Positions 52,034-57,240 of a stretch of DNA of 64,000 nucleotides are shown in pieces. The notes beneath the pieces were generated by a model. It did no database searches, was not told the origin of the DNA, and saw nothing but the letters and a program-made list of their open reading frames with translations. A program made the position numbers and the translations under genes. Position 1 is the stretch's first letter. Each line of letters begins with the position of its first letter. Location of the stretch: assembly GCA_020622085.1 (NCBI GenBank), contig JAHRYM010000001.1:557117-621116 (forward strand), given 5' to 3'. Origin of the DNA: Paracoccaceae bacterium. Lineage in GTDB: Bacteria; Pseudomonadota; Alphaproteobacteria; Rhodobacterales; Rhodobacteraceae.

Positions 52034-53623
52034 TCAGGGCGATGTGGTGTAGCTTACGCCCTTCACATCGGCATCCGGCGCGGTCTTTTCGCGCCGCACC
52101 CGCAAGCGGTTCAGCGCGCCGATATAGGCGCGGACAGAGGCCACCACCGTGTCGGTATCGGCCGATTGGCCGGTGGCGATGCGGCCCTGTTCCTCGACCC
52201 GGACGGAAACGGTCGCCTGCGCGTCGGTGCCCTCGGTCACGGCATGGACCTGGTAAAGTTGCAGCGTCGCTTCATGCGGGAAAAGCGCGTTCACCGCGTT
52301 GAAGGCCGCATCCACCGGGCCATCGCCGGTGGTGTTGACGGACTGTTCCTTGCCGCCCACGATCATCGTCATCTCGGCGCTGGAGGGGCCGGTGCCGCAG
52401 ACGACGCGCAGCGATTTCAGTTGCAAATAATCGCTGTCGGTATTGGCCGCCGAATCCTGCAAGAGCGCCAGGATGTCGTCATCGTGGACTTCCTTCTTGC
52501 GGTCGGCCAGCGCCTTGAAGCGCACGAACAGGTCGTTGAGCTGGTTGTCCGCCAGTTCGAAGCCCAGTTCGTCAAGTTTTGATCGCAGCGCGGCACGGCC
52601 CGAATGCTTGCCCATGGCGATGTTCTTGGCATGCAATCCGATATGTTCGGGGCGCATGATCTCGAAGGTCTCGACGTTCTTCAGCACGCCGTCCTGATGG
52701 ATGCCGGATTCGTGCAGGAAGGCATTCTTGCCGACGATCGCCTTGTTGAACTGCACCGGAAAACCCGAAACGGTGGAAACCCGGCGCGACAGGTGCATGA
52801 TCTTCGTCGTGTCGATGCCGGTGCGGTAGGGCATGATGTCGTTGCGGACCTTCAGCGCCATCACCACTTCTTCCAGCGCCGCGTTGCCCGCCCGTTCGCC
52901 CAAGCCGTTGATCGTGCATTCGATCTGGCGCGCGCCGGCCTCGACCGCAGCGAGACTGTTGGCCGTCGCCATGCCAAGGTCGTTGTGGCAATGGGTCGAG
53001 AAGACGACCGTATCTGCGCCCGGCACCCGTTCCAGCAGCATGCGGATCAGCTGGGCGCTTTCGCGCGGCGCGGTATAGCCCACGGTATCGGGGATGTTGA
53101 TGGTCGTGGCCCCTGCCTTGATGGCGATTTCTACCACCCGGCACAGGTAATCATGTTCGGTGCGTGTCGCGTCCATCGCCGACCACTGCACGTTGTCGCA
53201 AAGGTTGCGGGCATGGGTCACGGTGTCGTGGATCCGGCCGGCCATCTCGTCCATGGTCAGGTTCGGAATGGCGCGGTGCAAGGGCGAGGTGCCGATGAAG
53301 GTGTGGATGCGCGGGGATCTGGCGTGGCGCACCGCTTCCCAGCAGCGGTCGATGTCCTTGAAGTTGGCGCGCGACAGCCCGCAGATGGTCGAGTTGACGG
53401 AACGCTTCGAAATCTCGCTTACGGCCGCGAAGTCGCCTTCCGAGGCGATGGGGAAGCCCGCCTCGATGATGTCGACGCCCATTTCATCCAGAAGGCCGGC
53501 GATTTCCAGCTTTTCGTCATGGGTCATCGTCGCGCCGGGCGACTGTTCACCATCCCTGAGGGTGGTGTCGAAGATCAGGACGCGGGGCTGGTCGGCCTGC
53601 GCGGTTTTCTGTTGGATCGTCAT
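52034..53623 (-). CDS. leuA: 2-Isopropylmalate synthase
   Basis: LeuA condenses acetyl-CoA with 2-ketoisovalerate in the first leucine-specific step. The 529-residue protein has the DTTLRDGEQSPG signature (residues 19-30; Arg23, Asp24, Glu26), metal-binding STHCHNDLGMATAN, and GKHSGRAAL in the linker. A C-terminal regulatory domain with GKEQSVNTTGDGPVDAAFNAV carries leucine feedback inhibition. The length fits the bacterial type. The start codon is ATG 53623. It is preceded by a leucine-rich leader peptide on the same strand (53702-53794), so expression is likely controlled by attenuation. The ribosome site is the weak GAGAGAC. Confidence 0.96.
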   Translation of the reverse strand: MTIQQKTAQADQPRVLIFDTTLRDGEQSPGATMTHDEKLEIAGLLDEMGVDIIEAGFPIASEGDFAAVSEISKRSVNSTICGLSRANFKDIDRCWEAVRHARSPRIHTFIGTSPLHRAIPNLTMDEMAGRIHDTVTHARNLCDNVQWSAMDATRTEHDYLCRVVEIAIKAGATTINIPDTVGYTAPRESAQLIRMLLERVPGADTVVFSTHCHNDLGMATANSLAAVEAGARQIECTINGLGERAGNAALEEVVMALKVRNDIMPYRTGIDTTKIMHLSRRVSTVSGFPVQFNKAIVGKNAFLHESGIHQDGVLKNVETFEIMRPEHIGLHAKNIAMGKHSGRAALRSKLDELGFELADNQLNDLFVRFKALADRKKEVHDDDILALLQDSAANTDSDYLQLKSLRVVCGTGPSSAEMTMIVGGKEQSVNTTGDGPVDAAFNAVNALFPHEATLQLYQVHAVTEGTDAQATVSVRVEEQGRIATGQSADTDTVVASVRAYIGALNRLRVRREKTAPDADVKGVSYTTSP

Positions 53624-53641
53624 GCTATGTCTCTCACCATG

Positions 53642-53794
53642 TCCTTGAGCCTTGTCAGTTCGGCGCTGATCACCTCTGAGCGGTCGCGCCGGAAGGCACG
53701 CTCAGAGGCGGCTAAGGAGAAGAAGCAGGCCACGGGCGACCGCGCCGCGGGAAATCGCGGCGGCAACAGCAGGGATATGCCGGGTCCGGGTCAT
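53642..53794 (-). promoter_or_regulatory. leuA leader/attenuator RNA region
   Basis: The leader transcript can form a perfect 10-bp stem between CGCTCAGAGG (53699-53708) and CCTCTGAGCG (53673-53682). Its 5' arm includes the leader stop codon. A second pairing joins GGCTAAGGA (53710-53718, the Leu-codon region) and TCCTTGAGCC (53642-53651) with one bulged base. The 10-bp stem has no following T run, so the terminator may be Rho-dependent or control may be translational. Leucine-responsive control is inferred from the leader peptide. Confidence 0.6.
53702..53794 (-). CDS. leuL: Leucine-rich leader peptide of leuA
   Basis: A 30-residue peptide starts at ATG 53794 and ends at TGA 53702-53704, 78 bases before leuA on the same strand. 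Six of its last eight residues are leucine (LLLLLSRL), encoded by CTG CTT CTT CTC CTT and CTC. The peptide ends inside a perfect 10-bp stem. This is the classic layout of a leucine attenuator. No Shine-Dalgarno site precedes the ATG; a TATATT hexamer lies eight bases upstream (53803-53808), so the mRNA may be leaderless. It is too short to look like a functional protein and has no other family. Confidence 0.75.
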   Translation of the reverse strand: MTRTRHIPAVAAAISRGAVARGLLLLLSRL

Positions 53795-53802
53795 GGGGCG
53801 CG

Positions 53803-53808
53803 AATATA
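53803..53808 (-). promoter_or_regulatory. -10-like element of the leuL-leuA transcript
   Basis: TATATT on the minus strand lies eight bases before the leuL start codon, which would put the transcription start within a few bases of the ATG. No convincing -35 hexamer is visible 17 bases upstream. Confidence 0.4.
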
Positions 53809-53962
53809 GGCTGCGGCGCGGAAAGGAAAAGCGGAAAATGGCGCCCATGTTGCGCGGCTGTGTCATTCTGGCCGCAGATGGGTGGGCACGGTCTTTGACG
53901 GCTGCGGTGGTCATCACTAATCTGGCGCGGAGCATGGAGCGGTGGCCTTGAGGGGTGGCAGA

Positions 53963-55054
53963 GTGGCGGATGAACCCAACCCCTACGGCGACCTGCCCCC
54001 GACCGCCTATTGGCGCAGTGGAGTGGCCGAGGCCGGTATCTTCGGGCTGTCGGGGCTTTGGCGTTCGGCCTGGGCGCTGCCTTCCGACGCGCGGTTTGCC
54101 ACCTTCGGGTCGTGCTTTGCCCAGCATATCAGCCGCGCGCTTGTGGCGCGGGGCATGCCTTGGGTCGATGCCGAACCGGCGCCGGGGCGCTGCCCGCCCG
54201 ATCTGGCGCGGCGCTTCGGCTTTGGGGTGTTTTCGGCCCGCACCGGCAATATCTACACCGCCGCCCAGCTTCTGTGCCATGCGCGGCTGGCGGCGGGCAT
54301 GGATGATCCGGATGCCATCGAGACATGGGAGCAGGGGGGGCGCCACTACGATTCGCTGCGCCCGGCGATCGAGCCCGGGGGGGTTGCCAGCCTGGCCGAG
54401 GCGCAGCTTTCCCGCCGCTCGATGGTGCGGGGTTTTGCGCGGGCGGTGCGGCAGGCGGATGTGCTGGTCTTCACGCTTGGGCTGACCGAAGGCTGGCGGT
54501 CTGTTGACACCGGCCAGCCCTATGCGATGTGTCCGGGCACCACCGCGGGCCGGTTCGATCCGGGTGCGCATCGGTTTGAAAATGCGGGCTACCCCGACGT
54601 GCGCGCCGCCCTGGAAGAGGCGATCAGGATTCTTCGCGGGCTCAATCCCCGCCTGCGGGTGCTTTTGACGGTGTCGCCCGTGCCGCTGACCGCCACGGCA
54701 TCGGGGCAGCATGTGCTGGTGGCAACCGGCTGGTCCAAGGCTACCTTGCGCGCGGTAGCGGGCGATCTGGCGGCCAGTGACGCGGGCATCGACTATTTCC
54801 CGTCCTTTGAAATCATCACCGGGGCGCCGGCACGGGCGATGTTCTTTGACCCGAACCTGCGGACGGTGGCGCCGGCGGGGGTCGATCTGGTGATGCGGCA
54901 TTTCTTTGCCGGCCTCGATCTTTCCGCACCATCCGCGCATGGCGATCCTGTTCCCGACACCGCGCGGCTGGCCGAGGCGGCGATGGCGGCTGGCGATCTT
55001 GTCTGCGAGGAAGAGATTCTGGGAACCCTGGCCGGGGGGCTGGATCGTGGCTGA
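53963..55054 (+). CDS. GSCFA-domain protein
   Basis: This 363-residue cytoplasmic protein belongs to the GSCFA family, named for the motif seen here as FATFGSCFAQHI near residue 42-53. It is an SGNH/GDSL-like hydrolase fold; the Ser of GSCFA is the presumed nucleophile. Other segments are FGFGVFSARTGNIYTAAQ, DVLVFTLGLTEGW, LLTVSPVPLTAT and MFFDPNLRTVAPAGVD. Members are often near polysaccharide genes, but the reaction is unknown. I chose GTG 53963 because AGGGG lies eight bases before it; GTG 53942 would add seven residues. The stop overlaps the next gene by 8 bases. Confidence 0.82.
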   Translation: MADEPNPYGDLPPTAYWRSGVAEAGIFGLSGLWRSAWALPSDARFATFGSCFAQHISRALVARGMPWVDAEPAPGRCPPDLARRFGFGVFSARTGNIYTAAQLLCHARLAAGMDDPDAIETWEQGGRHYDSLRPAIEPGGVASLAEAQLSRRSMVRGFARAVRQADVLVFTLGLTEGWRSVDTGQPYAMCPGTTAGRFDPGAHRFENAGYPDVRAALEEAIRILRGLNPRLRVLLTVSPVPLTATASGQHVLVATGWSKATLRAVAGDLAASDAGIDYFPSFEIITGAPARAMFFDPNLRTVAPAGVDLVMRHFFAGLDLSAPSAHGDPVPDTARLAEAAMAAGDLVCEEEILGTLAGGLDRG

Positions 55055-55758: not shown

Positions 55759-57240
55759 TCAGTTCCCCGATGTGGTGGCGGGTTCGGCCGTGCCGGAAGG
55801 CGCTGCGCCGGATGCATCGGGTGCCGGGGCGGGTGGATTGGCGGTCAGCGTGCCATCCGACCAGTTGCCTTCGGCGACTTCGCCCGTGGCATAGCGCATC
55901 GTTCCCTGGCCCTGCCGCTTGCCCGCGACAAAGGTGCCTTCATAGACATCGCCATTCGGGTAGGTGGCCACGCCAACGCCGTCGATCTCGCCCTTCTTCC
56001 AGCCGCCCTTGTAGCGGAAGCCGTCGGCCATGGTGATTTCGCCGGTCCCCTCGCGCAGGCCATTGGCAAAACCGCCGGTATAGATGGTGCCATCGGCATA
56101 GACCGCGCGACCCTGGCCCTGACGCACGCCGCCCTTCCAGTCGCCTTCATAGGAATAACCGTCGGGGTAGGTCATCTTGCCCTTTCCCTCAAGCTTGCCC
56201 GCGACGAACTCGCCGTCATAGACCAGCCCCGAGGCATAGCGCGCGATGCCCTTCCCGTCGATCTCGCCGGCTTTCCAGGGGCCTTCATAGGTCGATCCGT
56301 CCTTGTAGGTGATCTTGCCCTGGCCTTCCGCCAGGTTGTTGACAAAGGCCCCCGCATAGACCGACCCATCGGGATAGGTGACGGTGCCCTTTCCCTCGAT
56401 CCGTCCGGCCTTCCAGTCTCCCTCGTAGCGGTAGCCGTCCGTGCCGGTGAAACTGCCCTTGCCGTCGCGCAGGTCGTCCTTGAAACTGCCATCGTAGACA
56501 TCGCCATTGGCATAGCGCGCAATGCCATTGCCATCGCGTTTGCCCTTCGCCAGCGCGCCTTCGTAGACATCGCCATTGGCCTGTGAGAGCTTGCCCTGGC
56601 CGTCGATCTCGCCTTCCTTCCACTGGCCGACATAGGACATGCCGTCGGGCAGGGTCAGCGTGCCGGTTCCGGCGCGAAGGCCGTGGACCATGCTGCCCTC
56701 ATAGACCGAACCATCGGGATAGGTGATGCGGCCCTTGCCTTCCTTGACGCCCATTACCCAATCGCCGTCATAGCGATAGCCGTCCGGGCTGGACATCACG
56801 CCCTTGCCATTGTGCAGGGCATTGCTGAAACCGCCGCTATAGCTGGTGCCGTTGGCGTATTTCGCGGTTCCCTGGCCTTCGATCTGGCCATTCTTCCAGT
56901 CACCGTCATAGGTCGATCCGTCGGCATAGGTGATCTTGCCCTTGCCGTCGGGCTTGCCCTTGGCAAAGTTGCCCTCGTAGACCGAGCCGTTCGGGAACCG
57001 CGCCTTGCCCTGGCCAAGGATTTCCCCCGCCACCCAGTCGCCGGTGTATTCATAACCGTTGGGCAGCCGGTAGGTGCCGTGCCCGTGCTGGCGGCCGTCC
57101 TTGAAGGTGCCTTCATAGACCCCGCCATCGGCGTAGTCCTTCTTGATCACCTCTTGCGCCGATGCGCCGCCTGCCGCGACAAGCATCGCCAGCATGACCG
57201 CCGCGGCGCCCTGCTTTGACTTGCCACCGAAACTGTTCAT
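55759..57240 (-). CDS. Exported MORN-repeat protein with 18 full repeats
   Basis: This 493-residue protein has a Sec signal (residues 1-28, AVMLAMLVAAGGASA) and then 18 complete 23-residue MORN repeats (residues 39-452) with a partial 19th, each of the form G-x-x-Y-x-G-x-W/F-x-x-G-x-x-x-G-x-G. It ends in a Pro/Ala/Ser/Thr-rich tail. MORN arrays bind phospholipid or form extended beta-sheets; no bacterial reaction is known. Repeats alternate between W-type (GDW) and F-type (EGxF), but the alternation slips at repeats 9-10. It is divergent from nadE with a 231-base gap. The start ATG 57240 is not preceded by a clear ribosome site. Confidence 0.85.
   Translation of the reverse strand: MNSFGGKSKQGAAAVMLAMLVAAGGASAQEVIKKDYADGGVYEGTFKDGRQHGHGTYRLPNGYEYTGDWVAGEILGQGKARFPNGSVYEGNFAKGKPDGKGKITYADGSTYDGDWKNGQIEGQGTAKYANGTSYSGGFSNALHNGKGVMSSPDGYRYDGDWVMGVKEGKGRITYPDGSVYEGSMVHGLRAGTGTLTLPDGMSYVGQWKEGEIDGQGKLSQANGDVYEGALAKGKRDGNGIARYANGDVYDGSFKDDLRDGKGSFTGTDGYRYEGDWKAGRIEGKGTVTYPDGSVYAGAFVNNLAEGQGKITYKDGSTYEGPWKAGEIDGKGIARYASGLVYDGEFVAGKLEGKGKMTYPDGYSYEGDWKGGVRQGQGRAVYADGTIYTGGFANGLREGTGEITMADGFRYKGGWKKGEIDGVGVATYPNGDVYEGTFVAGKRQGQGTMRYATGEVAEGNWSDGTLTANPPAPAPDASGAAPSGTAEPATTSGN

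Follow-up and report, generated by a model that had tools for sequence, protein, structure and literature searches.

A Leucine-rich Leader and a Stop-codon-containing Pseudoknot Upstream of leuA in Rhodobacterales, a Candidate Alphaproteobacterial Variant of the LEU Element

How might a short leucine-rich reading frame control the leuA gene that follows it when no terminator lies between the two? This question is raised by one locus in a stretch of 64,000 nucleotides from a Paracoccaceae bacterium, which was analyzed as a whole and is referred to as the window. In leu operons of the Escherichia coli type, a leader peptide with consecutive leucine codons precedes leuA and attenuation involves a terminator and an antiterminator with a U-tract. 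The locus in the window has a comparable leader peptide, followed by RNA helices, and it has been compared here with leuA upstream regions from related and more distant bacteria.

Organization of the Locus

A preliminary description, made from the letters of the window, had placed on the minus strand a 30-residue leader peptide that ends 78 bases 5' of leuA and has leucine at six of its eight final codons; both statements agree with the sequence, the coordinates letter by letter. It had also described a perfect 10-bp stem (53708-53699 with 53682-53673) that encloses the stop codon, which is confirmed letter by letter, and a pairing between the leucine-codon region (53718-53710) and positions 53651-53642, which is found to comprise 9 bp with one bulged C. 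The features that will be discussed are as follows.

53826..53831, minus strand: -35-like CTTTTC, read from the sequence, 17 bases ahead of the -10 hexamer
53803..53808, minus strand: -10 hexamer TATATT, 8 bases ahead of the leader ATG
53702..53794, minus strand: leader ORF (leuL-like), 30 residues, MTRTRHIPAVAAAISRGAVARGLLLLLSRL, with ATG at 53794 and TGA at 53704-53702, ending GLLLLLSRL before the stop
53710..53718, minus strand: A, the last leucine codons and the following Ser and Arg codons, TCCTTAGCC, pairs with F
53699..53708, minus strand: B, the 5' arm with the stop codon, CCTCTGAGCG, pairs with D
53695..53698, minus strand: c, TGCC, which could form an alternative hairpin with the first bases of C
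53686..53691, minus strand: C, CGGCGC, located in the B:D loop, partner of E
53673..53682, minus strand: D, CGCTCAGAGG, pairs with B
53661..53666, minus strand: E, GCGCCG, pairs with C
53642..53651, minus strand: F, GGCTCAAGGA (GGCTcAAGGA), 18 bases ahead of the ATG of leuA, partner of A
53631..53638, minus strand: weak Shine-Dalgarno-like sequence of leuA, GGTGAGAG, read from the sequence, 7 bases before the ATG
52034..53623, minus strand: leuA, 2-isopropylmalate synthase, 529 residues, with ATG at 53623

The identity of LeuA is given by its HMGL-like, HCS_D2, and LeuA_dimer domains in Pfam. The position of TATATT implies that the transcript would start at or next to the leader ATG. A sigma-70 consensus scan with E. 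coli hexamers found no promoter in the window; stretches resembling CTTTTC or CTTTCC are also seen by eye in relatives.

Three other reading frames of the window may be noted. A short frame (53620-53673, minus strand) follows the stem, ends with VISAELTRLKDMVRDIA before its stop, and overlaps the leuA start as ATGA; it was dropped as a candidate second leader, being common by eye only to the same-genus locus L114. A gene for a GSCFA-family protein (53942-55054, plus strand) is divergent from the leuA leader; 148 bases separate the start listed for this gene from that of the leader, and a control region may be common to both. The ORF at 55759-57240 (minus strand) is long and has many YEG-type repeats, which we take to be MORN-like.

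Locus Sets and Procedures

The comparison covers 218 leuA upstream regions, comprising 122 of the Rhodobacterales set and 96 of other Alphaproteobacteria, with a taxonomy that rests on named loci and family labels. The 122 loci include that of the window itself (L001), its same-genus neighbor L114, and the identical pair L008 and L044, and also take in a few neighbors such as Neomegalonema and MAGs named only to class. Leaders were picked by peptide alone, as frames with at least four leucines among the final 10 codons. An alignment of 83 rows (A1) was made from the Rhodobacterales set; it omits L044 (a duplicate of the L008 stretch), L087 (with a LeuA identity under the 66% cut), L091 (partial gene), and five loci in which the leader was not within the first search range (L028, L046, L050, L072, and L086), the first four of which have a leader further upstream than that range. 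The covariance model R1 was built from 83 Rhodobacterales-set sequences. Analyses of the position of F, of masking, and of A:F at the start region used only loci with a leuA frame known from tblastn, to which the start-region analysis adds six loci with an intervening gene; for the position of F (75 loci), seven of 82 were dropped for a helix score below 12. Related loci are not independent, and the tests collapsed to classes correct partly for kinship.

Conservation of the Leader

A leucine-rich leader precedes leuA in 120 of the 122 Rhodobacterales-set loci, as compared with a block-shuffle mean of 12.8, and is absent from the other two (L086 and L162). Among the other Alphaproteobacteria it was found at 48 of 96 loci with a block-shuffle mean of 13.8, and part of these 48 leaders will therefore have arisen by accident. 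The 120 of the Rhodobacterales set likewise include one or more leaders, L180 among them, that look accidental. When three leucines in five codons are taken as the rule, 72 of the 96 other alphaproteobacterial loci pass (shuffle mean, 12.6), and 30 pass when four in five are taken (1.1 in shuffles). The exact ending LLLLSRL occurs in 32 of the 120 Rhodobacterales-set leaders, 94 of which have at least four leucines within five codons, and the endings LLLLIRP, LLLLIGP, and LRLIRP recur outside that set. The preliminary description would have been refuted had relatives failed to conserve the leucine run or the stems; within the Rhodobacterales set both are conserved (for the stems, see below).

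R1 finds one copy of the element in the genome of the window (next best match, E about 2). A scan with R1 across the class gave a match in nine of 191 genomes, of which three belong to the family of the window; R1 is tuned to the Rhodobacterales set, and the distribution was therefore judged from the leuA upstream regions instead. Searches of Rfam release 15 at the gathering score returned nothing for the whole window or for nine related loci. Three weak Rfam matches at a permissive threshold (best E, 0.012, below the family cut-offs) were taken as chance.

The leader had also been described as looking leaderless, and the relatives lend support to this. In 78 of the 120 leaders of the Rhodobacterales set an in-frame ATG is preceded, at a distance of 5-9 bases, by a hexamer TAnnnT; the gap is 7 in 47 of them and 8 in 25. 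Counted per ATG, the hexamer precedes 79 of 233 in-frame ATGs versus nine of 949 others. A Shine-Dalgarno-like 4-mer was found in the usual place in only one of the 78 leaders that carry the hexamer. The proximity of this -10-like hexamer to the leader ATG suggests a leaderless transcript. Among the leaders of the other Alphaproteobacteria, one of 48 has such a hexamer, and leaderless leaders would be a trait of the Rhodobacterales set as far as the -10 motif shows.

Helix B:D and the Stop Codon

A stem made only of Watson-Crick pairs and at least 7 bp long runs through the stop codon in 93 of 120 Rhodobacterales-set leaders and in 24 of the 48 others; for control stops taken from these upstream regions the count is 43 of 2168. 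No stem of at least 7 bp was found through the stop at the usual place, with G-U pairs allowed, in nine of the 120 (including L180 and L181) and in 10 of the 48. When loci were not selected for the stem, the downstream sequence of a locus paired better with its own B than with a foreign one for 35.5 of the 37 distinct B types of the Rhodobacterales set, and the same comparison gave 34 of 43 B types in the other Alphaproteobacteria. The leader and the stop-codon stem thus also occur in other Alphaproteobacteria.

The stop codon itself covaries inside helix B:D. For the 149 stems that reach 7 bp, a middle base A of the stop (TAG or TAA) is opposite U in 13 of 13 cases, and a middle G (TGA) is opposite C in 133 of 136 and opposite U in three; the count is conditional on the stem, and a few of the 149 stems look accidental. 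In the 83-row alignment B:D is paired in 97.3% of cells. Helix B:D and the alternative hairpin c:C together have 14 pairs, in which 19 cells are changed on both sides, all of them in B:D (2.7 in shuffles), and their covariation score is 0.141 as compared with 0.099 +/- 0.004 for shuffles and at most 0.078 when the helices are slid. Two-sided changes of any kind occur at three of the pairs, which is not above shuffles (93 of 500 reach three). The core TGAGCG..CGCTC is very constant in the Rhodobacterales set.

The folding energy of the stretch in the window has a z of -0.92, with 38 of 200 shuffles folding equally well, so that the element is undetectable from folding energy alone. The minimum-energy fold, computed with no provision for pseudoknots, comprises A:F and B:D as well as the alternative hairpin c:C.

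Pseudoknot Helix C:E

Segment C in the loop of B:D is complementary to segment E beyond its 3' arm, and C:E together with B:D would form an H-type pseudoknot that is closed at its base by A:F. This helix and the covariation of the stop codon are additions to the account given in the preliminary description. In the Rhodobacterales set the own C:E pairing is the better one in 90 of 111 loci and in about 31 of 36 classes. GGTGC is opposite GCACC in 10 of 15 loci and opposite GCGCC, with a G-U pair, in four, and GGCGC is opposite GCGCC in 85 of 89; in Paracoccus loci C:E is wholly rewritten, for example as TCCGGGC/GCCCGGA. Among the other Alphaproteobacteria C:E is without significant support (20 versus 17; about 19 of 35 classes). 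Two AT-rich loci outside the Rhodobacterales set, L157 (stop TAA) and L200 (stop TAG), have the stop-codon stem together with a loop helix TTTTGGC/GCCAAAA, a possible pseudoknot.

The alternative hairpin c:C is paired in 93.7% of cells without two-sided changes and is lost, by eye, in loci of the Paracoccus type.

Helix A:F and the Start of the Following Gene

Helix A:F connects the leucine codons to the region before the start codon. When F was sought within 42 bases of the start codon, the own A:F was stronger than that with a foreign A in 79 of 88 Rhodobacterales-set loci and in 22 of 24 distinct A classes (p = 2e-6); over a wider search region the result is weaker (91 of 108 loci; 21.5 of 30 classes, p = 0.04). 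In the other Alphaproteobacteria the comparison is not significant with F within 42 bases of the start (11 of 19, p = 0.47), and over the wider region it gives 25 of 36 loci and 15.6 of 23 classes (p = 0.09).

In six of the 88 loci (L028, L046, L050, L072, L132, and L175) leuA is separated from the element by a gene of 117-118 codons. In L046 the product of this gene is a cupin by Pfam; the genes of the other five look alike by eye, and all six are referred to as cupin-like. The A:F duplex in these six ends 3-9 bases before the start codon of the intervening gene and the own A:F is stronger in all six (p = 0.03). The pairing thus tracks the start region of the next gene and not leuA as such. 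In three further loci (L062, L176, and L088) the leader stop is 246-309 bases from residue 12 of leuA and only ORFs of 41-72 codons lie between; the end of the short ORF in L062 resembles that of the 117-118-codon gene, of which it may be a decayed copy.

Where leuA follows directly, the distance from the end of F to the leuA ATG is 15-24 bases in 50 of 75 loci, and an overlap of F with the best Shine-Dalgarno match is limited to 34 of these 75. From these positions, F borders or covers the ribosome-binding region of leuA; since it usually lies some 20 bases upstream of the start, masking of the Shine-Dalgarno sequence is not the whole story.

The effect of covering the leucine codons was modeled in a pseudoknot-free ensemble. 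With these codons masked, the unpaired probability of leuA positions -28..+3 rises from 0.479 to 0.570, an increase seen in 68 of 81 loci (p = 2e-11), and an upstream mask of the same length gives 0.488 (45 of 81 loci, p = 0.33). This result fits a ribosome that, while awaiting leucyl-tRNA, would keep A from F. A mask over the stop region gives a mean of 0.554, and the model therefore hardly separates stalling from termination; for the window alone, the leucine mask brings a small gain, from 0.394 to 0.420, which is less than that of the stop mask (0.452).

Rarity of Terminators

In agreement with the preliminary description, which had found no stem followed by T residues after the leader, terminator-like sites between the leader stop and the gene occur in one of 118 Rhodobacterales-set loci and in two of 39 other loci with the stem. 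Classical termination after the leader is accordingly unlikely. A scan of the window for such sites on the minus strand found two. The first is located upstream of the promoter; the second (53741-53728), which falls within the leader ORF and precedes the leucine codons, was taken as chance because like sites occur in 12 of 119 leaders with 8.3 expected when the part before the leucine run is shuffled.

Proposed Mechanism and Alternatives

Attenuation by leucine codons in the absence of a terminator had been proposed for the window, and the relatives bear this out as far as sequence comparison can. The preliminary description had left two ways for it to operate, through Rho or on the translation of leuA. 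Translation has gained, because the leucine codons are paired with the start region of whichever gene follows, and Rho is now the main rival. In the reading to which we give a probability of about 0.6, the element would be a translational attenuator of the LEU-element type that responds to leucine. Comparison of the loci shows a leader with its leucine codons, a promoter positioned as for a leaderless start, few terminators after the leader, and, within the Rhodobacterales set, the helices B:D, C:E, and A:F; the direction of regulation, the stalling of the ribosome, and translation as the controlled step are what we infer. The steps would be as follows. (i) Transcription would begin at the leader AUG, and ribosomes would load straight onto the 5' end. 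(ii) With ample leucyl-tRNA, the ribosome would pass the leucine codons, stop inside B:D, and depart, after which the RNA would close as the pseudoknot formed by B:D and C:E; the vacated leucine codons (A) would then pair with the purine-rich F at the upstream edge of the leuA ribosome-binding region and leuA would be translated less. (iii) With scarce leucyl-tRNA, a ribosome parked on the leucine codons would cover A and part of B, F would stay open, and leuA would be translated. Leucine shortage would thus, most likely, switch leuA on.

The same leader could instead act on transcription, its ribosome exposing or hiding a loading site for Rho before leuA, with the helices serving only to protect or expose that site. 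Such Rho-dependent attenuation would fit the rarity of intrinsic terminators after the leader, and Rho has been proposed as a possible explanation for the terminator-less leaders of cys operons (PMC1262725). We regard it as rather unlikely, since it leaves unexplained why A:F forms at the start region of the first gene, whichever gene that is, and why the distance from F to the start codon is narrow.

The very constant core TGAGCG..CGCTC in the Rhodobacterales set and the compactness of the pseudoknot are features that a binding site for a regulatory protein or a small molecule might also have, in which case the leucine codons would be secondary. A protein is favored for the actinobacterial element by the authors of PMC1262725, who name orthologues of the helicase-like ML1624; at the threshold given there, however, homologues of ML1624 are reported not to have been found outside Actinobacteria, yet the same anatomy is present in Alphaproteobacteria, which would argue against the actinobacterial regulatory protein as a general explanation. 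The retention of leucine-rich leaders in 120 of 122 loci also speaks against a binding site, which we consider improbable.

Termination and reinitiation, in which the fold would draw the leader stop near the leuA start so that terminating ribosomes re-initiate there, would give a role to the stop codon as part of the structure and to A:F and B:D, which pull the 3' end of the leader beside the leuA start. It is nevertheless very improbable, because 78 bases with stable helices separate stop from start in the window and because leucine codons would be needless. That a chance leucine-rich ORF and a stem without function have been described is scarcely credible: the fold of the single sequence is indeed not unusually stable, but the conservation of the leader and the covariation of the helices speak against it.

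Relation to Known Elements

The arrangement resembles the LEU element, an actinobacterial element upstream of leuA that is described as a pseudoknot inside a base stem, the base stem pairing leucine codons with the Shine-Dalgarno region of leuA (Seliverstov et al. 2005, PMC1262725). In that account the mode of regulation is left open, other parts of an attenuator being missing, and mutations of the Streptomyces coelicolor leuA leader are cited as having some effect that is inconsistent with classical attenuation (PMC1262725). The likeness lies in the position before leuA and, for the Rhodobacterales set, in a base stem on the leucine codons and in the internal pseudoknot. As in the published element the base stem reaches the leuA Shine-Dalgarno region (the 79 of 88 loci above), but it overlaps the best Shine-Dalgarno match in only the 34 of 75, and F here usually lies some 20 bases ahead of the start codon of leuA, unlike in the LEU element. 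Further differences are the phylum and the length of the leader, which is mostly about 28-30 residues here and 13-16 in the actinobacterial element. The preliminary description had held the stop codon in the stem and the lack of a terminator to be unexplained by ordinary annotation; the LEU element, as published, now explains them in part.

Five actinobacterial leuA records were compared directly, and a leader was found in four of them (L240, L242, L244, and L245). In L242 the leader MQFGLLLLSCRDESSD is accompanied by a stem TGCCGCGACGAG/CTCGTCGCGGCG, a loop helix GGGCC/GGCCC, and a base helix GCTTCTTCTT/GAGAAGAAGC; L240 has the three helices in the same order, and L244 and L245 have the stem and show no clear base helix. 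The stop codon lies beyond the 5' arm in these four loci, whereas it is inside B:D and covaries in the alphaproteobacterial ones, which is the most telling of the differences. R1 matches the leuA leaders of three of the five records, L242, L240, and L245, with 23.8, 20.9, and 20.6 bits (E from 4e-4 to 2e-3 in 38,925 bases; the E-values are rough, and the score is partly one of sequence), aligning stem arm on stem arm with no non-standard pair marked, and misses L244 and L241. The last, a leuA on a Streptomyces plasmid record, has neither a leader nor an R1 match. Outside leuA upstream regions R1 matches reach at most 10.2 bits, and two other matches upstream of leuA, in L111 and L243, score 12.7. 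On the basis of the common anatomy and the R1 matches, the element is placed as an alphaproteobacterial variant of the LEU element. The alphaproteobacterial and actinobacterial elements, the latter represented by a handful of loci, may have converged on one anatomy. L243, an actinobacterial-type leuA of Sinorhizobium meliloti, has at about 440-520 a leader-like frame that ends with ASLLLLGLIRGCRVR before its stop; nine codons separate its leucine run from the stop, which is nearer the actinobacterial arrangement, and the 12.7-bit match of R1 falls in this region.

Other leaders share single features with the one in the window. In Streptomyces lividans TK24, leuL1 is a leaderless leader, MRFGLLLLSCRGEGL, reported before leuA without a typical Rho-independent terminator (PMC8079986); it belongs to an actinobacterium, and its transcript start was mapped, whereas the start is only predicted here. 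Four consecutive leucine codons are given for the presumed leuA leader of Corynebacterium glutamicum, likewise an actinobacterium (PMC4046766). Within Rhodobacterales, the uORFC-8-2 motif before cysS likewise has a leader with tandem codons for the relevant amino acid, although these are cysteine codons and the motif is described with an intrinsic terminator stem (PMC8632094). The leucine leader is also like that of the E. coli-type leu attenuator, whose U-tract terminator is rare here and which gave no Rfam match at the gathering score. Among the open-access matches listed, no report of a leuA leader or a LEU element in Alphaproteobacteria was found; one may have appeared earlier in a subscription journal. 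The abstract of Vitreschak et al. 2004 reportedly names alphaproteobacterial ilvIH and not leuA.

Implications

We suggest, as a tentative generalization that is perhaps the less likely outcome, that the LEU element is a ribosome-gated pseudoknot class of two phyla, related by descent or by transfer, in which the alphaproteobacterial stop codon is a base-paired part of the switch, so that release of the ribosome at the stop, in addition to its stalling on the leucine codons, would time the closure of the pseudoknot on leuA. The leader, the covarying stop codon, and the pairing before other first genes argue for a ribosome-based switch on translation. The element would supply a regulatory annotation for leuA in Rhodobacterales, where no family of Rfam release 15 matched the window or nine further loci, and tractable Rhodobacter strains make the mechanism of the LEU element, which was left open in 2005, directly testable.
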